DNA of 49,118 bases from Eubacteriales bacterium (GTDB taxonomy: Bacteria > Bacillota > Clostridia > Oscillospirales > Oscillospiraceae). Shown piece after piece: positions 40,100 through 48,680 of this stretch. Under the pieces are notes generated by a model. That model was not told the origin of the DNA, made no database searches, and saw only the letters and a program-made list of their open reading frames with translations. Position numbers and translations under genes: made by a program. The stretch spans positions 1-49,118 of the forward strand of contig JAUNJE010000011.1 in the NCBI GenBank assembly GCA_030533415.1, read 5' to 3'. Positions within the stretch are counted from its first letter, which is position 1. The number at the start of each line of letters is the position of its first letter.

Positions 40100-41170
40100 C
40101 TATTCGTGCGGTTCTTCGCTGACCGCTTCGGGTAGCTGCGGATTCTCCGGCTTGGCAAACATCTTCGACAGGCTTTCTGCGAAGTAGCTCAACCGGGCCG
40201 TCACCTTGGCGTAGTCCATCCGGGTGGGGCCGACCACGCCGATCATGCCCTGAAGTCCGTCACCGATGTCGAACTTTGTCACTACCACGGAAGTGTCCTT
40301 CAGTTCGTCCGCTATATTTTCGGGTCCGACGATGACTTTCGTGCCGTTGGCGTTCTGCATAACGGCAGGCAGGTTGCTTAACGCATCCTCGTCAATAGAA
40401 GCCATGACCCGCTGGGCTTTGTCCACATCCCGGTATTCGGGAAGCGTCAGCAGCCGGGACTGGCCAAAAACGGCCATATTGGTGGAAGCCTGGTTTTTCA
40501 GGGTCTCCTGGGTGAAGTCCAGGATCACAGGCACCAAGGAAGCGGCGGCACCGGCGGAGCGCATCACCTTATCCATCAGCTCGGCGGTGAAGCCCTCCAG
40601 GGGTAGCTCCGTCATGGCGGCATTGAGCACCGCACTGAGAAGCTTCAAATCGGTCTCCGTCACATCCAGGGGAAGCTTGATGACCTTGTTGACCACCTGG
40701 TCATTGGGGAGCATCAGCACCAGAATGAAGCTGCCCTGCCCGGCCTGGAGCAGCTCAAAGCGCTTGACACAGGCATCGCCGGAGCGGGAAGCCGCGGAGA
40801 TGGCAGGAAGGTTCGTGGCCTGGGAAACCAGCTTTGCCACTTTTTCCACCATTTTGTCCACCCGCTGCATCTTTTCCTCAATGGCGGTGTTGATGGACTT
40901 GGTCTCGTCGATAGAAAGCCGGTAATCCATCATCAGCTCATCGACATACAGCCGGTAGCCTGCGGCGGAGGGAATGCGGCCCGCACTGGTGTGGGGCTGT
41001 TCCAAATACCCAAGGGCGGTCAGGTCCGCCATTTCGTTTCGAATGGTTGCGGAGGAATATTTCATGTCGGGAAGCTCGGTGATGGCTTTGGAGCCAACCG
41101 GTTCCGCTGTGCGGATGTACAGGTCAACGACACTGCGCAGGACCTTCTTTTTCCGCTCGGTCAGTTCCAT
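40100..41170 (-). CDS. hrcA: Heat-inducible transcription repressor HrcA
   Basis: Represses class I heat-shock genes by binding the CIRCE operator; GroEL aids its folding. The 356-aa product has an N-terminal winged helix (LTERKKKVLRSVVDLYIRTA, SSATIRNEMADLTALGYLEQ, PHTSAGRIPSAAGYRLYVDE), a dimerisation/GAF-like core, and the C-terminal IGVVGPTRMDYAKVTARLSY motif. It is the first gene of the operon and lies directly behind a consensus CIRCE and a strong promoter, so it is autoregulated. ATG 41170 follows AAAGGAGGG. Confidence 0.97.
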   Translation of the reverse strand: MELTERKKKVLRSVVDLYIRTAEPVGSKAITELPDMKYSSATIRNEMADLTALGYLEQPHTSAGRIPSAAGYRLYVDELMMDYRLSIDETKSINTAIEEKMQRVDKMVEKVAKLVSQATNLPAISAASRSGDACVKRFELLQAGQGSFILVLMLPNDQVVNKVIKLPLDVTETDLKLLSAVLNAAMTELPLEGFTAELMDKVMRSAGAAASLVPVILDFTQETLKNQASTNMAVFGQSRLLTLPEYRDVDKAQRVMASIDEDALSNLPAVMQNANGTKVIVGPENIADELKDTSVVVTKFDIGDGLQGMIGVVGPTRMDYAKVTARLSYFAESLSKMFAKPENPQLPEAVSEEPHE

Positions 41171-41566: not shown

Positions 41567-41727
41567 AGGAAGCTCTGAACAATTTGACATCGGCTGGGCG
41601 GCGGAGCTTTTCCCCACCGGTGCAGGATGAAAAACGGGAAATCCATACAGTGTTCCCCGTTTTCCATACCTTCCGGCGAGCCAAAATCTCCCGCTGCCGG
41701 CCTTCGGCTCATGATTCAGAGCTTCCT
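41567..41727. repeat. 161-base element with 13-bp perfect terminal inverted repeats
   Basis: Ends are AGGAAGCTCTGAA (41567-41579) and TTCAGAGCTTCCT (41715-41727). The interior has no convincing gene. Its right end touches the stop codon of the spoVT-derived reading frame. The size and ends resemble a MITE; no clear target-site duplication was seen. Confidence 0.55.
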
Positions 41728-42179
41728 TAACTTTCCATCTGCTTTCCAAGGAACCCGGCAGCGGTTTTGGCCAATCCCTGATCCGCCTCCTGCAGCGGGC
41801 TGGCGCCTTCGCTCAGCAGCAGCATCACACAGCCCATCAGGTCCCCCTGGGAAAGGATCGGCGCGGCGGCGCCCAGCTGGTATTTTTCCTCTCCGTCCGC
41901 GGCAAAGATTGGCGTATCGCCGCTTTTGTAGAGATAATTTTTCCGCTGCTCCATCAGCTTCTCCAGCTCGGGAGAATTGGGTTTGTCCATCAGTTCCCGC
42001 TTGGGAATACCGTGCAGGGCGATGATGCTGTCCCGGTCGGCCACAGCCGCGATATGCCCGGTAGCGGACCCGATGGACTCACACATCTGCGCCGCAAACT
42101 CCTGCAAATCCCCCATAGGGGAATACTTGCGGAAGATAACACCCCCGTCTTTCTCAGTATAAATCTCCAACGGGTCGCC
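41727..42179 (-). pseudogene. spoVT: 3' part of spoVT separated from its start by the element
   Basis: These 150 codons plus stop correspond to SpoVT from about residue 31 of the 178-residue B. subtilis protein: the end of the AbrB-like DNA-binding domain (GDPLEI, then GVIFRKYSP) and the complete GAF sensor domain. The missing part is the first ~30 residues, the start of the AbrB swapped-hairpin DNA-binding domain; I find no such sequence elsewhere in the window. SpoVT regulates late forespore genes and spore germination properties. This copy cannot make normal SpoVT while the element is present, although excision could restore it. Confidence 0.85.
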
Positions 42180-43880
42180 GTCACTGATAACATGGACATC
42201 GTAGACCTTGTCCAGATGGTTTTTTGCAGACTGAACAAGGGTGACTGGCATATCTTCGATGCCCTTCTTAAAATTTACCGCTTCCTCCCTGGCCTCCGCC
42301 TGAAGCAGTGCGTCCACATCCGCCTGGAGCTGAATTTCCAAATGATCCTCATAAACCCGAATCCGTTCAATCATCAGCTCCAGATCGTTCCGTTCCAGAT
42401 GCTCTTTGTTTAGAATATCCTGGAACACATCCAGTGCCGTTTTGGCCGCCCGGTTGACCCGGAGAATGGTGTTGCGCTTGTCGGAAAGCATTTCGATCTG
42501 ATGATTCAGCCCCTCAATTTTCTTTTGCAGGTCGGCTTCCAGCTCGTCGTAGGTTTCTTCCAGCAATTCCTCCTGGTCTGGGTGCTTCATAATGTCCCGG
42601 ATTCGCTGGCGCTTGGTGGCTTTCAGCTCAGCCTGTAAGTCCTCCAATACATCCGCCAGGCGGTCGGCGGACTGTTCGGTCTCCGCCACGTTTTCCTTCT
42701 CCCTGGCGAGGTCTTCATTGAGCTGACGGATCATGGCAGCGGAATTATCCATCACCTTTTTGACGTAGAGCTTCATCAGCTCGTCCAGTTTGTCCACCCG
42801 AATGTGGTGGCTGGTGCAGCCATCCAGTCCCCGGCGGTGGTAGGTGCCGCAAGTGTAGGCGGGCTGCAAATCCCTCCGGCTCATAGCGAACATGGGGCTG
42901 CCGCAGTCGCCGCAGAACAGGAAGCCGGAATACACGTTGTCGTACTTCTTTATCCCCCGGTAATTGGACCGGGTGCGTTTTTCCCGGAGGGCCCGGGTGA
43001 TGGCGAAGGTGCGGTAGTCGATGATCGCCTGGTGGTGATTTTCGATGACGATGTGCTCCCCGTCGTCCCGGCGCACATCCCGGCCATTGATTTTTGACCG
43101 CGTATATTTCCCCTGCCGCAAAGTACCGATGTAAAAGTCATTGTCCAGGATTCCCTGCACCGTGACAATGGCCCAGGCGGCCTTGACCTCCCGCTTGCTT
43201 TCGCTGCCCTCCGCCTGCTTGCGGAGCTGCTCGGACATCCGGGGGGTGGGAATGCCCTCTTTCGTCAGGTGATTGGCGATCCGCTTGTAGCCCCATCCGG
43301 CGTTGTTGTACAGGTCAAAGATTTTCCGCACGATCTCCGCTTCCGTAGGGACGATCTCAAATTCCTGACGCTTGTTTACGATGTAACCGTAGGGGGCGGC
43401 GCAGATCCACTTTCCATCCGCCTGCCTTCGTTTGATGACGTTCTTCACCTTTTTGCTGGTATCCGTCACCGGCATCTCATTGATAAGGAACTGGAACTGG
43501 ATTTTCAGCCAGTCGTCATCGTTGGGAAAGTCGATGCCATCCCCGATGGAAATGATCCGCACCCCCGCGTCCCGCAGGTCTTCCAGCTCCACCAGTCCCC
43601 GGGAGTTGCGCCGGGAGAACCGGGAGAAGTCCTTGACAATCAGAATGTCAAACTTGTGTCCCATCAGTCCCCGGCGCATGGCCTGATACCCTTCCCGCTG
43701 TTCAAAGGTATAACCGGAGCGGTCCCGGTCCTCGTAAAATGTCAGGCTGCTGTCCGGGAATTTGCTCTTTACGAAATCCGCGATGATGGCCTTCTGGTTC
43801 TCAATGGATACGTTGTCCCGGTCCAGCTCATCATCCACGGAGATTCGGCAGTAGCCTGCAATATCAAAACGCTCTATCAA
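41727..43880 (-). CDS. Large serine recombinase fused in frame to the C-terminal part of SpoVT
   Basis: 717-aa product. Residues 1-150 are the resolvase catalytic domain (AGYCRISVDDE, nucleophile Ser14; GYTFEQREGYQAMRRGL; IVKDFSRFSRRNSRGL). Next come the recombinase DNA-binding domain (APYGYIVNKR, GWGYKRIANHLTKEGIPTPR), a zinc ribbon (CGDCGSPMF, YTCGTYHRRGLDGC) and a long coiled coil (about 385-475). Residues 568-717 are unrelated to recombinases. They start GDPLEIYTEKDGGVIFRKYS and end TAAGFLGKQMES, matching the SpoVT C-terminal GAF region almost end to end. The start is TTG 43880 with AAGGAGG upstream. The fusion implies that the element integrated inside spoVT, codon for codon in frame. 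The recombinase would catalyse insertion and excision of the element. Confidence 0.92.
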   Translation of the reverse strand: MIERFDIAGYCRISVDDELDRDNVSIENQKAIIADFVKSKFPDSSLTFYEDRDRSGYTFEQREGYQAMRRGLMGHKFDILIVKDFSRFSRRNSRGLVELEDLRDAGVRIISIGDGIDFPNDDDWLKIQFQFLINEMPVTDTSKKVKNVIKRRQADGKWICAAPYGYIVNKRQEFEIVPTEAEIVRKIFDLYNNAGWGYKRIANHLTKEGIPTPRMSEQLRKQAEGSESKREVKAAWAIVTVQGILDNDFYIGTLRQGKYTRSKINGRDVRRDDGEHIVIENHHQAIIDYRTFAITRALREKRTRSNYRGIKKYDNVYSGFLFCGDCGSPMFAMSRRDLQPAYTCGTYHRRGLDGCTSHHIRVDKLDELMKLYVKKVMDNSAAMIRQLNEDLAREKENVAETEQSADRLADVLEDLQAELKATKRQRIRDIMKHPDQEELLEETYDELEADLQKKIEGLNHQIEMLSDKRNTILRVNRAAKTALDVFQDILNKEHLERNDLELMIERIRVYEDHLEIQLQADVDALLQAEAREEAVNFKKGIEDMPVTLVQSAKNHLDKVYDVHVISDGDPLEIYTEKDGGVIFRKYSPMGDLQEFAAQMCESIGSATGHIAAVADRDSIIALHGIPKRELMDKPNSPELEKLMEQRKNYLYKSGDTPIFAADGEEKYQLGAAAPILSQGDLMGCVMLLLSEGASPLQEADQGLAKTAAGFLGKQMES
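42162..42179. other. Probable attachment-site core (left junction) of the element
   Basis: These 18 bases encode GDPLEI on the minus strand, where recombinase-like sequence (HVISD) switches to SpoVT sequence. Large serine recombinases cut at a 2-bp core within such a short shared sequence. The exact core dinucleotide cannot be fixed without the right junction. Confidence 0.6.
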
Positions 43881-43947: not shown

Positions 43948-44223
43948 CTAAAATGTCATTTCCATTCCTTTTTCCATAGAAAGATTTTCTTTCTCCCTCT
44001 GCACCGCAAGCTCCTGAATGCGCTTGCGGTTGTAGAGCAGTAGGTCGCTGGTCTGGCGGTAGAGGTCCTGCTTCCCGGACTGGAACACAGCAACCAGATA
44101 TCCCCGGCGTTTGTAGTCCAGGTACATGGGTTCCAGTTGTTTGCGAACCGCTTCGCTGTCCCGCTCCTGCCTGGTCAGCCATACCTCTACTTGTTTTTTG
44201 TCATCCGAAACATGAATTTCCAG
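43948..44223 (-). CDS. Small conserved-looking element protein, apparent CTG start
   Basis: An open frame of 91 codons lies upstream of the recombinase: LEIHVSDDKKQVEVWLTRQE, then continuing to MYLDYKRRGYLVAVFQSGKQ and DLLLYNRKRIQELAVQREKE. The composition and helical pattern look like a genuine protein. No ATG, GTG or TTG is available near its beginning: a TGA lies in frame just upstream and the AAGGAGG site is followed nine bases later by CTG (44221-44223). I therefore assign a CTG start. I recall similar short proteins next to recombinase and mob genes in clostridial elements. The function is unknown. Confidence 0.7.
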   Translation of the reverse strand: MEIHVSDDKKQVEVWLTRQERDSEAVRKQLEPMYLDYKRRGYLVAVFQSGKQDLYRQTSDLLLYNRKRIQELAVQREKENLSMEKGMEMTF

Positions 44224-44291: not shown

Positions 44292-45728
44292 TTATCCCAT
44301 CCGCAGGCTCTCCCTTTGTTTCTGCTCCGCTATGAATTCGTTGTACTCCTCCTGCTCCAACGCTTCCCGTTCCTCACGCTTCAGCGCCATGATAGCACCG
44401 GTAGTCAGGCCGATTACCGCTCCCAGATTGGATGCCGCCTGCTGGGCTTCCTGCTGCCGTCTGCGTTCCTCCGGGTCGTCGGATTCGGCGTCTGCTACCC
44501 TGCCAAGTGCAGCAGCACCCCGCAGGCCAAGGCTGACAGCACCGCCGAAAGGGTGGAGGTCAATGCCACCCGTTTCAAGATCCGCTTCTCCAAACGCTGG
44601 GCGGTATCCTCCATAACCTTGAGATTTTCGGATAGCAGTTTGGACGTATCGGAGGAAAATTTCTCTCTCTCGCTCCCATCCTGTTGGAGCATTCGGTCGA
44701 TTTTCTTTAGTGCCTCCTGCTTCTCTGCCAGCAGAATCTGCCGCTGCTGCGCGTGCATCTGCTCCAGCTCCTGCCGGGTTGTCAGCAGGGAAATCATCTG
44801 ATAAAGCGTAGGCTGGAACTCGACTGCCTGCTCCAGCAGCTTCATCCAGCTTTCCAGCCACGCTTTGGGCACCGCATACACGATTGGTTGGTACGGTGTT
44901 TCCTGGATTCCTTCCATCGCCTGAGCATTGCTCTGGATCAGGTTTTCCAAGAAGGTGTTGCTGTCGGACTGTGAATTCATTCTCCAAATTCTCCTTTAAG
45001 TATTTTTCATCGTGCAGCTTATTGCACCGGCATTTCATTCCGTTTGGGCAGGTGAAGGTGATGTATTTCCGGTCATCCGTCCAGGAAACTTGGTAGCCCG
45101 CCCGGTTCATCAGCTTGATAAAATCCTCCCTGCCCGCGCTTTTCTCCATGGCCTTGTTGATGGTGAACATTAGCCGGAACTTCCAGCTCTGCCCCTTCTG
45201 GGCCGCCCGGTATTCCCTGGCGGACAGCTTCTGTCCGCCCTTGCGGTAAGGGGGCAGAATATTCAGGCCGTGGGCCATACAGACCTCATCACTCAGCGCC
45301 CGGAGCTGCCGCAAGGTATTGGGATCCTGCCGCAGCTTTTTCCCTGTTTCATAGCTGACGGAGTTGATAATGAAGTGGGAATGGGGATGAGCAGTATTAC
45401 AATGAGTGGTCACCAGCACCTCATAACCGGGCCATGCCTTTTCCGCAAATTCCAGTGCAATCTGGTGGGCCTGCTGGTATGTAAGGTTTTCTTTTGGGGA
45501 AAAGGACTGGACATACTGGTAGAAATGGATGCCGTCCAGCTTGTGATATGCTCCCTTGGTTGCCATAAATTCCGTGGCAGCGTTCAGTCCATCGCAGTGG
45601 ATTCCGCTGACAAACCGCTGCCCTGTTACTGGGTCAACAGTCTTATCCTCCCGCTGGCAGTAGGCGATCACGGCACGCATAGCGCCCACACTCTGGCAGT
45701 GTTCCTTGATGTAAGTTACCGTCGCCAT
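44292..45728 (-). CDS. mobA: MobA-type relaxase (MOB_P family)
   Basis: Nicks oriT and pilots the strand during conjugative mobilization. In the 478-aa product the N-terminal ~245 residues are the relaxase domain: candidate catalytic Tyr23 in VIAYCQRED, and the metal-binding three-histidine motif His114/116/118 in AHPHSHFIINSVSYETGKK. The middle (about 250-360) is low-complexity Ala/Gly-rich, and the C-terminus (AASNLGAVIGLTTGAIMALK) is Ala-rich with charged coils. Residues ~250-411 are encoded by DNA that also encodes a second protein in another frame. The start codon overlaps the end of mobC by 13 bases, with GGGAGG inside mobC, so the two are translationally coupled. Confidence 0.9.
   Translation of the reverse strand: MATVTYIKEHCQSVGAMRAVIAYCQREDKTVDPVTGQRFVSGIHCDGLNAATEFMATKGAYHKLDGIHFYQYVQSFSPKENLTYQQAHQIALEFAEKAWPGYEVLVTTHCNTAHPHSHFIINSVSYETGKKLRQDPNTLRQLRALSDEVCMAHGLNILPPYRKGGQKLSAREYRAAQKGQSWKFRLMFTINKAMEKSAGREDFIKLMNRAGYQVSWTDDRKYITFTCPNGMKCRCNKLHDEKYLKENLENEFTVRQQHLLGKPDPEQCSGDGRNPGNTVPTNRVCGAQSVAGKLDEAAGAGSRVPAYALSDDFPADNPAGAGADARAAAADSAGREAGGTKENRPNAPTGWEREREIFLRYVQTAIRKSQGYGGYRPAFGEADLETGGIDLHPFGGAVSLGLRGAAALGRVADAESDDPEERRRQQEAQQAASNLGAVIGLTTGAIMALKREEREALEQEEYNEFIAEQKQRESLRMG
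44495..44980 (-). CDS. MobB-like protein nested inside mobA in another frame
   Basis: 161-aa open frame wholly inside the relaxase gene. It starts at ATG 44980 and has its own strong Shine-Dalgarno (AAAGGAG, with a second GGAGA closer). The product begins MNSQSDSNTFLENLIQSNAQ, has a helical coiled-coil region rich in Q, E, K and L (about 60-135), and ends in a hydrophobic tail (LTSTLSAVLSALACGVLLHL) that looks like a C-terminal membrane anchor. Its composition is more protein-like than the Ala/Gly-rich relaxase frame opposite. Its position and architecture recall MobB of RSF1010/R1162, which is likewise nested in mobA, membrane-associated, and assists transfer. Assignment is by arrangement rather than sequence identity. 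Confidence 0.75.
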   Translation of the reverse strand: MNSQSDSNTFLENLIQSNAQAMEGIQETPYQPIVYAVPKAWLESWMKLLEQAVEFQPTLYQMISLLTTRQELEQMHAQQRQILLAEKQEALKKIDRMLQQDGSEREKFSSDTSKLLSENLKVMEDTAQRLEKRILKRVALTSTLSAVLSALACGVLLHLAG

Positions 45729-46042
45729 GGATTTCCTCCCATGTGGACAAGTGCCTCATAAATTCTTCTCTGTCCATCAATGACCTCGCTGAAATTGTAG
45801 GATTTGAATACGCCCATATTGATCTTTGTGGTGATCTGGTTCAGGTTCGTCCCGATGCGTTTCAACTCTGTTACGATGGGTTTCAAATCCTCCGGGACAT
45901 AGATTTTTGCGTTGAGGGCGCAGGTTACCAGGTAATCCGTCAGGGACATTTCCGCCTTTTGCGCTTGCTCTAAAATGGATTCCTTTTCCTTCTCCGTGAC
46001 CCGGATAGTCAGGGTCACATTCCGCTTCCGGTTTTCTGTCAT
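45716..46042 (-). CDS. mobC: MobC-type relaxosome accessory protein
   Basis: 108-aa protein with a ribbon-helix-helix-like N-terminus (RNVTLTIRVTEKEKESILEQ, AQKAEMSLTDYLVTCAL) and the MobC-family segment ELKRIGTNLNQITTKINMG. MobC proteins bind and locally unwind oriT to help the relaxase nick. Its 3' end overlaps the relaxase start. The oriT of such systems normally lies just upstream, where an inverted-repeat-rich stretch is seen. Confidence 0.92.
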   Translation of the reverse strand: MTENRKRNVTLTIRVTEKEKESILEQAQKAEMSLTDYLVTCALNAKIYVPEDLKPIVTELKRIGTNLNQITTKINMGVFKSYNFSEVIDGQRRIYEALVHMGGNPWRR

Positions 46043-46537: not shown

Positions 46538-47554
46538 TTAGGGGCCCGTTTTTTGCGTCACTTGCGGCACTTCCGTCACTGGCGGGATGTATTGAACATC
46601 CACCAGCCGCTGGCCGTTGCTTCGGTGACTGTGAAAGGACACCCCCTGTTCCAGCAGTTGGGCTTTCCACACGTTCATCAGCTGTTTCAGCCGCTTGGGT
46701 TCCACCCGCTTGCCAGTGTGGGAGGCAAACGCTTCCGCCAGTTCTGTGTTACCGCCAGAGAAGGATTTCTTCGTTTTCATGAACCCCAGGAAAGCGCCCA
46801 TCTCCTTTGGCATCCCAACCTCCTGTCCGCTCTCCGAAACCAGCTCCCACACATAATCCTCTTTGGAGAAGTGCAGTTCCAGAACACGGTCTTCAATGTC
46901 CCGCCCGGTACATTTCATCAGCGCCGCGCTCTGTGTGCGTTCCTTCTTTTCCAGGATGAAGATTGCGTCCGCCGCACCGGAGATTCCCGTGGTTCCGGAG
47001 AGCCGGTTGACGGGATCCCGGTCGTCCAGCTTTCTCAGATGGTGAACCAGCAGGATGGTGATATGCAGCTTGTCCGCGAGCTGCTTGATCTTTCGCATCT
47101 CCTGATAGTCACCGCCATAGCTGGGGTCTCCGCTGCTGGCGCGAACCATCTGGAAGGTATCGATCACAACCAGCACCGTATCCGGACGCTCCCGGAGGAA
47201 GAACCGAATCTGCTCTTCCAACGTATCTGCCAGTGTTCCGGCGGCGTTGGCAAAGCACATATCCTTTGGTATGTCGTCGGTCATAAAGGACAGGCGCTTT
47301 TGCACCCGCTCATAGGTATCCTCCAGGCACAGGTACAGCGTTGTCCCCTTCCGGGTGTGCCGGTTCCATACTGGCTCCCCCTTCGCGACCCGCAGGCACC
47401 AGTCCAGCATCAGCCAGGACTTCCCCACCTTCGGTGCGCCACCCAAAATACACAGTCCCTGGGGCAGCAGAGCGTCGATACAGAATTCACGGGGTGCACA
47501 CACCATGTCCATCAGCGTTTCTCCATCCAGATAGCATAATTTGATTTCCTTCAT
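46538..47554 (-). CDS. RepA-like RecA-fold ATPase/helicase
   Basis: 338-aa protein with a RecA/KaiC-type core (AAA_25 style): Walker A LGGAPKVGKSWLML (about 37-50), Walker B VLVVIDTFQMVR, then ITILLVHHLRKLDD and a GTTGISGAADAIFILEK segment as in hexameric replicative helicases of the RSF1010 RepA type. The C-terminal ~90 residues are a winged-helix-like tail (GGNTELAEAFASHTGKRVEP). ATG 47554 with GGAGGG upstream is preferred to the upstream frame start at 47596. In the element it may unwind DNA during replication of the excised circle. Confidence 0.85.
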   Translation of the reverse strand: MKEIKLCYLDGETLMDMVCAPREFCIDALLPQGLCILGGAPKVGKSWLMLDWCLRVAKGEPVWNRHTRKGTTLYLCLEDTYERVQKRLSFMTDDIPKDMCFANAAGTLADTLEEQIRFFLRERPDTVLVVIDTFQMVRASSGDPSYGGDYQEMRKIKQLADKLHITILLVHHLRKLDDRDPVNRLSGTTGISGAADAIFILEKKERTQSAALMKCTGRDIEDRVLELHFSKEDYVWELVSESGQEVGMPKEMGAFLGFMKTKKSFSGGNTELAEAFASHTGKRVEPKRLKQLMNVWKAQLLEQGVSFHSHRSNGQRLVDVQYIPPVTEVPQVTQKTGP

Positions 47555-47675
47555 AACTTTTTCTCCCTCCTCGACGGTTCTCAACAGGATCACCATCTCC
47601 CTTTGTGATACACTTTACCAAGGATTCCCATAAAAATACATCAGTAAGTGATCTTACAAAAAATGGGAAAGTTTG

Positions 47676-48680
47676 ATGACAGACAAGGATGGCAATATGA
47701 ATATGAGAAACGATGGTTTGTATGTTTCTCTGCTCCCGGACGGAACAATAAAAAAGCACCTCATCACAGACTGTGAAGAGGTGCCGCTGGAGGATACAAC
47801 AATTGCAGAAGAGTTGATCCGCCTGTCTGAGCAGGATCATATTGATCTATATAAAGCCATCAAGGAGATGTGGGCAATTGCTGGAATGATTGAAGAGGGA
47901 AACTATTCGGATAGCATATTTACCATTGAAATGGAGCTATTTCTGCACAAGCTTAGAAGAGAACACCTGGTTCGATATGCCCTGTTGATGACGCAGTTTG
48001 GAGAAAAGCCAAACGACAGACCATTTTATATTCCTACTGCAAAAGAATCCGCACTTTCCATTGTGGAGAATTTCAGCCAGGCCATGTCAGCAGACGTTAC
48101 AGTCGGTAGAGTCTTGTCGGCACTAAGCAGTAATCAACCTATTGACCTAGAGGGCGAACATTTCATGCTTCGCAAAACTAAGGCTATAGCGTACTTTACA
48201 TTCGATGGTTCTATTTCTACAGAATATCAGTTTCGTACTGAAGATCACTACTATATTTTTCTCTTGCAGAACTTCCTGTGCTCAGAACCCAGAGTTGCCT
48301 GCTGCCAATACTGCGGAAGATACTTCATTCCCAAGTCAAGGAGAAAAACGTTGTACTGCGACCGCGTCATTCGGGACGGGAAGACCTGTAAGCAGATTGC
48401 GCCGCATCTGAACCGAAAGGAGCGTGCCGCTGCCGACAAAGTGGTATCCGAATTCAACCGGGTAAAGGATATGCTGGTTCACCGGCTGGAACGGGCGCAG
48501 TACGATAAGAAGTCCTCCCCCATTGACTTAACCCGGGAGGAATACTACCGCTGGCTGGATGTCGCCACTGCTGCCCGTGAACGCTACCTGTCAGGAGAAC
48601 TGTCCGAGGAGGAGGCGTGGAAGATCATCCACGTGCCGACCATTCAAGAGCAGCAGAGCGGACTTGTAACAGCAACATGA
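47676..48680 (+). CDS. DUF6076-like protein with Cys-rich motif
   Basis: 334-aa protein of unknown function, divergent from the RepA-like gene. The N-terminal two thirds have no motif I recognise. Near residues 210-245 there is a zinc-finger-like pattern, CCQYCGRYFIPKSRRKTLYC followed by GKTCKQIAPHLNRKE. The C-terminus is helical and acidic (LSGELSEEEAWKIIH). From memory this matches DUF6076-type proteins that accompany clostridial integrative elements. The start is uncertain: ATG 47676 has a weak GGGAAAG upstream, and ATG 47697 is a plausible alternative. The N-terminal half is more AT-rich than the C-terminal half. Confidence 0.75.
   Translation: MTDKDGNMNMRNDGLYVSLLPDGTIKKHLITDCEEVPLEDTTIAEELIRLSEQDHIDLYKAIKEMWAIAGMIEEGNYSDSIFTIEMELFLHKLRREHLVRYALLMTQFGEKPNDRPFYIPTAKESALSIVENFSQAMSADVTVGRVLSALSSNQPIDLEGEHFMLRKTKAIAYFTFDGSISTEYQFRTEDHYYIFLLQNFLCSEPRVACCQYCGRYFIPKSRRKTLYCDRVIRDGKTCKQIAPHLNRKERAAADKVVSEFNRVKDMLVHRLERAQYDKKSSPIDLTREEYYRWLDVATAARERYLSGELSEEEAWKIIHVPTIQEQQSGLVTAT

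Follow-up and report, generated by a model that had tools for sequence, protein, structure and literature searches.

The DNA analysed here (the window) is a stretch of 49,118 nucleotides, positions 1 to 49,118 of contig JAUNJE010000011.1 (C80) in the 2.72-Mb, 88% complete draft genome of an Oscillospiraceae bacterium (GCA_030533415.1), and it carries part of an integrative element that appears to be inserted in the sporulation gene spoVT. At one end of the element a single open reading frame (ORF) encoding 717 aa, which starts with TTG at position 43880 and has AAGGAGG 5' of the start, joins a large serine recombinase to the C-terminal part of SpoVT (Table 1). Pfam places a Resolvase domain at residues 7-158 (1.7e-18), a Recombinase domain at 178-302 (1.2e-22), a zinc ribbon at 317-368, and SpoVT_C at 591-716 (2.8e-39). 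These three N-terminal domains and the coiled coil seen in a structural model identify the body as a large serine recombinase, and Foldseek matches the modelled body to the SPbeta, phiC31, and Bxb1 integrases. Residues 565-716 correspond to positions 27-180 of the NCBIfam profile TIGR02851 (spore_V_T; 139.5 bits, below the full-length cut-off of 235.9, as expected for a partial SpoVT) and match the SpoVT structure PDB 2w1t (E 5e-24). Because it holds only these profile positions, the fusion does not have the makeup of a SpoVT regulator, in which an N-terminal AbrB DNA-binding half precedes a GAF half. The initial annotation, made from the sequence alone, had described a recombinase frame running into SpoVT from GDPLEI to its natural C terminus; this description stands, except that 147 residues, rather than 150, follow the GDP junction at residues 568-570.

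The fusion was modelled with AlphaFold2 from an alignment of 50 fusions (49 of 65 complete ORFs plus that of the window), giving a mean predicted local distance difference test score (pLDDT) of 76 and a predicted template modelling score of 0.45. In the model, the recombinase core reaches approximately residue 527, residues 539-568 fall below a pLDDT of 50 and would form a disordered linker, residues 571-590 are weakly modelled (55-62), and the GAF-like part at residues 591-710 scores 84-91, with the tail matching PDB 2w1r (Foldseek, TMt 0.88). Separately, a repeat resembling a miniature inverted-repeat transposable element abuts the spoVT stop codon (window positions 41568-41735; inverted ends GGAAGCTCTGAA and TTCAGAGCTTCC), with three further copies at 75-81% in the same genome.

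Table 1. Features of the fusion, the element, and its flank; positions are those of the window except in the last row.
Feature	Positions	Strand	Basis
Fused ORF, large serine recombinase plus SpoVT C-terminal part, 717 aa	41727..43880	-	Single open frame, translation, Pfam, NCBIfam, PDB
Element-encoded recombinase part (catalytic, recombinase, zinc-ribbon, and coiled-coil domains, disordered linker)	42177..43880	-	Pfam, AlphaFold2, Foldseek
Host-derived spoVT 3' part (codons after GDP, GAF-like domain)	41727..42174	-	SpoVT_C (2.8e-39), model, breakpoints
Putative crossover dinucleotide GA, centre of the attP inverted repeat	42175..42176	-	Complementarity and breakpoints
attR: P-arm TGTCCATGTTATCAGTGACGGCGACCC ending in the core common to attP and attB	42172..42198	-	Pattern match, 0 mismatches
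Small unnamed protein (~84 aa) adjoining the recombinase upstream, candidate directionality factor	43972..44223	-	Position and size
MobA/VirD2-like relaxase	44292..45728	-	PF03432 (1.1e-34)
NikA/MobC-like relaxosome protein	45716..46042	-	PF21983 (8e-22)
AAA_25 ATPase	46538..47596	-	PF13481 (3e-24)
DUF6076 protein within the element	47673..48680	+	PF19553 (1.1e-10)
hrcA, host flank on the attR side	40100..41170	-	Gene list
Fusion in related genome G151	C51:18270-20420		

Junctions, tail histories, and the empty site

The fusion recurs widely among relatives. TIGR02851 matched 141 of 149 related genomes, full length in most of the matches listed, while a subset of matches covered only positions 27-180 within a frame of approximately 720 aa; the genomes with such fusions number 21 (17 of the window's genus and 4 of other families), and the 20 partial loci retrieved besides the window are all joined at GDP. 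A pattern built on the recombinase-side arm of the attachment (att) site retrieved at least 118 loci from GTDB and three from IMG/VR. Among the matches listed, 117 of 118 GTDB loci continue into SpoVT, as do all three IMG/VR loci; 119 of these 120 fusions continue with LEI and one with LEV, leaving L184 as the only locus without SpoVT. By NCBI name, the 118 listed GTDB loci include 115 Clostridia, 60 Oscillospiraceae, 8 Lachnospiraceae, and 20 Ruminococcus. The reversed arm pattern, used as a control, gave no match in 136 genomes. An arm-independent search of 136 genus genomes with the window protein (E up to 1e-90, at most eight candidates scored per genome) found all 22 recombinases with a visible C terminus fused to SpoVT, in the same 22 genomes that the arm pattern recovers, and no unfused full-length recombinase. 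It also returned three N-terminal recombinase fragments (G076:C57:21421-21960, G084:C49:1891-2430, and G084:C53:2207-3034), two of which carry two in-frame TAG codons each. The junction follows GDP throughout the fused GTDB, IMG/VR, and genus loci, and among the spoVT genes seen, these codons are conserved apart from L027 (GDA; motif GDALEI). Given the recurrence in the listed GTDB loci and in the genus, chance or a chimeric assembly was rejected as the source of the fusion.

The complementary junction was found as 22 orphan SpoVT N-terminal pieces that run into related element tails (N-tail junctions), some partial or degenerate and one (L003) ending at the junction itself; TTLT is encoded at the att arm in 8 of 21 such tails. 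Both junctions occur in the isolates Anaerotignum lactatifermentans DSM 14214 and Ruminococcus flavefaciens 007c, in the latter on one contig and ~54 kb apart, and seven further elements, each with its two ends on a single contig, span ~6.8-28.5 kb. A plasmid search for close recombinase relatives returned 264 records, all below 60% identity. The phage record MT836658.1 matches residues 4-716 of the fusion at 48%, and therefore carries the SpoVT tail, with a junction outside the arm pattern; another, MT839487.1, breaks off within the left att arm, lacks a terminal repeat of at least 11 bases, and yields no native circle.

Recombinase bodies and their tails were compared across the 97 loci in which the body spans at least 200 aa and the tail at least 130 aa (4656 pairs). 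Bodies are at least 90% identical in 53 pairs, of which 21 show tail identities below 70%; tails are at least 90% identical in 37 pairs, of which nine show body identities below 60%. Loci L098 and L122 are identical as far as GGCGATCC and diverge beyond it, whereas L067 and L206 (record DVGO01000073.1, Candidatus Faecousia faecavium) diverge before GACCCG and are nearly identical beyond. Because breaks occur in both directions, the crossover falls within GACC. These patterns indicate that recombinase and tail have independent histories and that the tail is the spoVT of the current host. In a tree of 155 tails (118 of 129 unique fused loci and 37 intact genes, with short or N-containing tails and L027 omitted), fused and intact tails interleave with 18 label changes, compared with a mean of 33.4 (minimum 28) for shuffled labels. 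Fused tails therefore cluster somewhat, and the 18 changes suggest only that the fusion arose many times. Where fused tails reach a stop codon in the data (110 of 120), all are 144-155 aa long. The nearest-neighbour ratio of nonsynonymous to synonymous substitution rates (dN/dS) has a median in the genus of 0.071 for fused tails (20 values) and 0.181 for intact spoVT (15 values); across all loci the ratio is 0.134 (75 values, 90th percentile 0.66) and 0.188 (19 values), respectively. The low values for fused tails argue against decay, and would also be expected after recent insertion.

A related genome supplies the empty site. The intact spoVT locus of G058 aligns with both sides of the element in G020: on the attR side identity is 95.5% in the flank and 93.4% in the part belonging to spoVT, on the attL side it is 90.6%, and the two alignments overlap by 12 bp at the core. 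The element bracketed in this way measures 30,055 bp. A split sporulation gene and an empty allele in a relative are features that the element shares with sporulation gene-intervening elements. Consensus left arms (129) and right arms (21) together form an inverted repeat centred on GA, with 16 of 21 positions complementary and 11 at the next best centre. These consensus arms, and a natural remnant at L184, fit the attP of a large serine recombinase, ~50 bp long with an imperfect inverted repeat and a central dinucleotide. At L184 (1076-1200) a near-perfect, attP-like palindrome is found with a recombinase end and a native tail, inverted relative to an adjoining intact spoVT. The att arms encode VNVIS and TTLT, which places attP within the recombinase frame.

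Exchange of tails between recombinase and spoVT

We propose, with high confidence, that the serine recombinase of the element has attP in its own gene, and that integration at the GDP codons of host spoVT swaps the 3' ends of the two genes in frame. In the circular form, translation of the recombinase would continue across attP, which would occupy codons of the disordered linker past the catalytic core, and finish with a native tail of ~25 residues. The recombinase would join attP to the matching codons, ending in GDP, of host spoVT, and the crossover would preserve both frames: the recombinase would lose its native tail and gain the second half of SpoVT with the GAF-like domain, and spoVT would be left with 33 codons followed by the native tail. 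The native-tailed protein would carry out integration, because it is the only form that the circle can encode. The SpoVT-tailed protein would be the only form made while the element is integrated, and self-excision, which would restore spoVT, would therefore have to use it, probably with a directionality factor. The native tail itself looks like a selected peptide, as a recombinase C terminus would, because the ratio of nonsynonymous to synonymous differences per site (pN/pS) past the att arm is 0.335 (12 tails, 65 pairs, synonymous sites saturated) and 0.607 (16 tails, 119 pairs) in two sets, and identity drops from 0.60 and 0.53 in the tails to 0.42 and 0.28 in the 60 bp 3' of the stop.

In-frame integration within spoVT as the origin of the SpoVT C terminus, as suggested in the initial annotation, is borne out by the 22 genus fusions, the independent histories of body and tail, and the empty site. 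That annotation also held that the element had captured the SpoVT tail. The recombinase does have the tail, but not for good: since attP lies inside the ORF, the tail is that of the current host's spoVT, gained at integration in exchange for the conserved native one. It had further proposed that spoVT is off while the element is integrated and restored by excision, that the GAF domain tunes the recombinase, and that the element may be a developmental switch. The data agree with all of these proposals, although what they show directly is the absence of a second full-length spoVT in the fused genomes of the TIGR02851 search.

A search of the genome to which the window belongs for the SpoVT N terminus, as the initial annotation had advised, was successful. 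A perfect copy (MKATGIVRR...IREGDP) ends contig C25; the last 55 bp of C25 are the start of C79, where the frame goes on into the element sequence SQTTWNPWERFCFAMLDLSKRN. A degenerate second copy (DDLGRIVIPKEIRRTLRIREGGP followed by SQKPEKEF) lies at C80:62400-62456, ~20 kb from the fusion and on the same strand. A search for contig overlaps did not link C79 to C80. C25 (the end of L003) and C79 (the start of L022) break exactly at the attL core, and their overlap marks a branch in the assembly graph, a sign of two alternative sequences in the sample that excision and strain mixture would explain alike.

Several points weigh against an exchange of tails by integration. The window's element has two candidate left ends, the canonical junction on C79, a different contig, and the degenerate one on C80, and among the matches listed no N-tail junction was seen in 5 of the 22 fused genus genomes (hand count, draft contigs). 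The left-arm consensus comes mostly from loci selected by that arm, a bias from which the right arm is free. The sole natural attP-like site, at L184, is a remnant of 15 codons in the opposite orientation to spoVT, and neither the arm-pattern loci nor the phage records searched contained a complete circle that encodes the full-length recombinase with its native tail. Finally, while the fusion, its single junction codon triplet, the attP inverted repeat, the host-derived tail, the empty site, the site-specific in-frame integration, and the reciprocal exchange of tails can be read in the sequences, all recombination activity is deduced from them.

What the exchange does for the element is a separate question. 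It may simply be a by-product of site choice, with the GDP codons a conserved target, the swapped tail without effect, and the element an ordinary mobilizable one. The unaltered recombinase core in the model, the conservation of the GDP codons (L027 excepted), and the mobilization genes in the element are in line with this explanation, to which we give somewhat less than an even chance. However, the native tail is conserved past the att arm, and the C-terminal end of the recombinase therefore matters in at least one state.

A developmental switch like skin, with the element leaving during sporulation to rebuild spoVT, seems to us similarly plausible and falls likewise short of even. SpoIVA is retained in 115 of 121 genus genomes, in all 35 good ones, in all 17 fused genus genomes of the TIGR02851 search (partial in G047), and in all three isolates, and that search found no second full-length SpoVT in any of the 21 fused genomes. 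A replacement N-half is supplied by recombinase-free cassettes that occupy this site in some genomes (see below), and sigK, gerE, and yabG provide precedents (excerpts of PMC5595907 and PMC10747680). On the other side, control differs among the known cases: according to excerpts of PMC5595907 the serine recombinase is constitutive in SPbeta and the Clostridioides difficile skin element and sporulation-specific in others, so that timing here is not predictable.

The swap could also be a built-in direction switch, in which the native-tailed protein only integrates and the SpoVT-tailed protein is locked or excisive. The gene structure gives each direction of recombination its own form of the protein, the native tail is a conserved and apparently selected peptide, the attachment point is a linker modelled as disordered past the core, and fused tails in the genus are under no visible decay, with a median dN/dS below that of intact spoVT. 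In a published experiment, a phiC31 integrase fused to its recombination directionality factor (RDF) turned 75-80% of the attL-attR product back to attP-attB (PMC6511857, in part). However, recent insertion would also explain the low dN/dS, and a separate candidate directionality factor stands beside the recombinase in 44 of 66 distinct loci, so that the tail need not have this function. We consider a direction switch unlikely.

That the tail is an ancient domain of the recombinase family, captured once, could be argued from its presence at nearly all GTDB loci listed, but this explanation, rejected on the breakpoints and the tail tree, is practically excluded by the independent identities of body and tail, the many label changes, and the empty site in a relative. 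The initial annotation had raised an intrinsic tail, carried regardless of insertion site, as the finding that would speak against it, and the data do not bear this out.

Beyond the exchange itself, the element encodes mobilization proteins next to the small protein adjoining the recombinase (Table 1). Homologues of the latter accompany 44 of the 66 distinct loci for which 1 kb or more of upstream sequence is available (49 of 71 counting repeats of one genome), no Pfam or NCBIfam family scores above cut-off for it, and it is the obvious candidate for the directionality factor. Cargo continues on C80 past the window (L020 8890-19663) with a 1642-aa beta-helix repeat protein, a GHKL kinase, and an AAA_14/DUF4143 ATPase; a similar ATPase seems, on reading the sequence, to be present in the 6.8-kb element of G187. 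On the host side, looking for intact spoVT beside hrcA in relatives, another suggestion of the initial annotation, led nowhere: no hrcA match was found in the flanks (mostly 1.5-8 kb) around relatives' spoVT and few neighbours are common between species, and hrcA synteny was rejected as a test.

Recombinase-free cassettes at spoVT

In at least 18 genus genomes (hand count; 17 confirmed full length), N-tail junctions occur together with full-length spoVT, not always on the same contig. In G070, five junctions are packed into ~8 kb 5' of intact spoVT, most of them separated by one or two small ORFs. Such integron-like arrays of small cassettes, each ending in spoVT codons 1-33, were seen upstream of intact spoVT at L275 (G070:C13:3500-15500), L276, L277, and L080. 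No recombinase of the fusion's family was found in the seven cassette loci of one set or in a second set that includes the G070 array, whereas the search that returned this negative does match all 20 of 20 fused loci, as well as the autonomous element L294. Larger cassettes occupy the same site at L084, L079, L081, L085, and L022; Pfam identifies a carboxylesterase in L022, and other ORFs look, by sequence reading, like sugar-acid catabolism, a CocE-type hydrolase, a kinase/ligase pair, and sialidase-like proteins.

In 16 pairs, a unit that lies upstream of intact spoVT in one genome lies upstream of an N-tail junction in the other. Three of these share long units, namely G058/G020 (89.4% over 903 bp), G111, from another family, and G070 (91.6% over 657 bp), and G070/G182 (85.5% over 571 bp); the remaining 13 have at most 103 bp in common. 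The DNA common to G070 and G182 stops at the GDP codons. Three comparable N-halves of the G070 array agree at 83-87 of 99 bases and are therefore not fresh duplicates. Cassettes could spread by ordinary reactions only: an element would insert beside a cassette, exit by the outer attL carrying the cassette with it, insert elsewhere, and then exit alone by the inner attL. Another likely route is homologous recombination within the N-half, because similarity drops there in the G111/G070 pair.

SpoVT is active in the forespore. A GYATA-type motif accompanied by an AAYAMTA-type box, a combination that we take to be sigG-like, precedes 30 of 44 N-tail pieces and 24 of 44 intact N-pieces (a loose pattern, without a chance control). 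A sigG-like promoter in every cassette was considered and dropped, as the motif is missing from four N-tail stretches of the G070 array, among others. It is conceivable, although we judge it improbable, that spoVT is the platform of an undescribed cassette system, in which a recombinase that changes its own tail moves cassettes into and out of the gene, each cassette closes with spoVT codons 1-33 (in many cases preceded by a sigG-like motif), the gene is whole once the recombinase leaves, and the SpoVT tail makes the integrated enzyme excision-competent or silent, coupled to sporulation. If so, the direction of the recombinase would be written by the reaction it has just completed.

Comparison with known systems

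A search of the open-licence literature by title and abstract found no paper on an integrative element or serine recombinase inserted in spoVT, and none on serine recombinase cassette arrays was found there; the arrays would thus be a route of gene movement without description in the literature searched. They resemble integrons in stacking small cassettes at one site without a recombinase of the fusion's family inside. However, their units end in target codons 1-33 and the recombinase of the site is a serine recombinase; no search was made for IntI, the tyrosine integrase that integrons have beside attI, or for attC.

Like skin (sigK), gin (gerE), yin (yabG), and SPbeta (spsM), the element is a large serine recombinase element that splits a sporulation gene. 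In the known sporulation gene-intervening elements excision rebuilds the split gene (excerpts of PMC5595907 and PMC10747680); SPbeta in spsM is another element of this kind (PMC4191935, in part). In the excerpts consulted, the recombinase is a separate gene, with spoIVCA and the yin recombinase lying downstream of the 5' half of the target (PMC10747680, in part). In contrast, the recombinase gene here contains attP, and the recombinase takes up the target's 3' half as its own C terminus. There is no hit for spoVT in PMC5595907 or PMC10747680; the present data make it a candidate rearrangement gene in gut Clostridia.

In the integration-dependent immunity of mycobacteriophage BPs, attP likewise lies in an ORF and integration alters the C terminus of its product (excerpts of PMC4557955); there a repressor is truncated, whereas here the recombinase itself gains a host domain. 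In engineered integrase-RDF fusions a domain is likewise joined to a large serine integrase (PMC6511857, in part; PDB entries 9dxd and 9teh, by name), but the present fusion is natural and its SpoVT part has no known RDF activity. It offers a natural test of how the C terminus sets the direction of large serine integrases, a question of direct use in genome engineering.

A further parallel is found in the archaeal suicidal integrases (SSV1, pTN3, and pT26-2), in which the target also lies within the integrase gene and integration parts its ends. These were called exclusively archaeal in a 2021 review (PMC8371274, in part), and they are tyrosine recombinases that are left split, whereas the enzyme described here is a bacterial serine recombinase whose core stays complete and whose tail alone is changed. 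The fusion represents a bacterial serine-recombinase counterpart to the suicidal integrases, in which integration leaves the enzyme unbroken and gives it a new tail, taken from a developmental regulator of the host.

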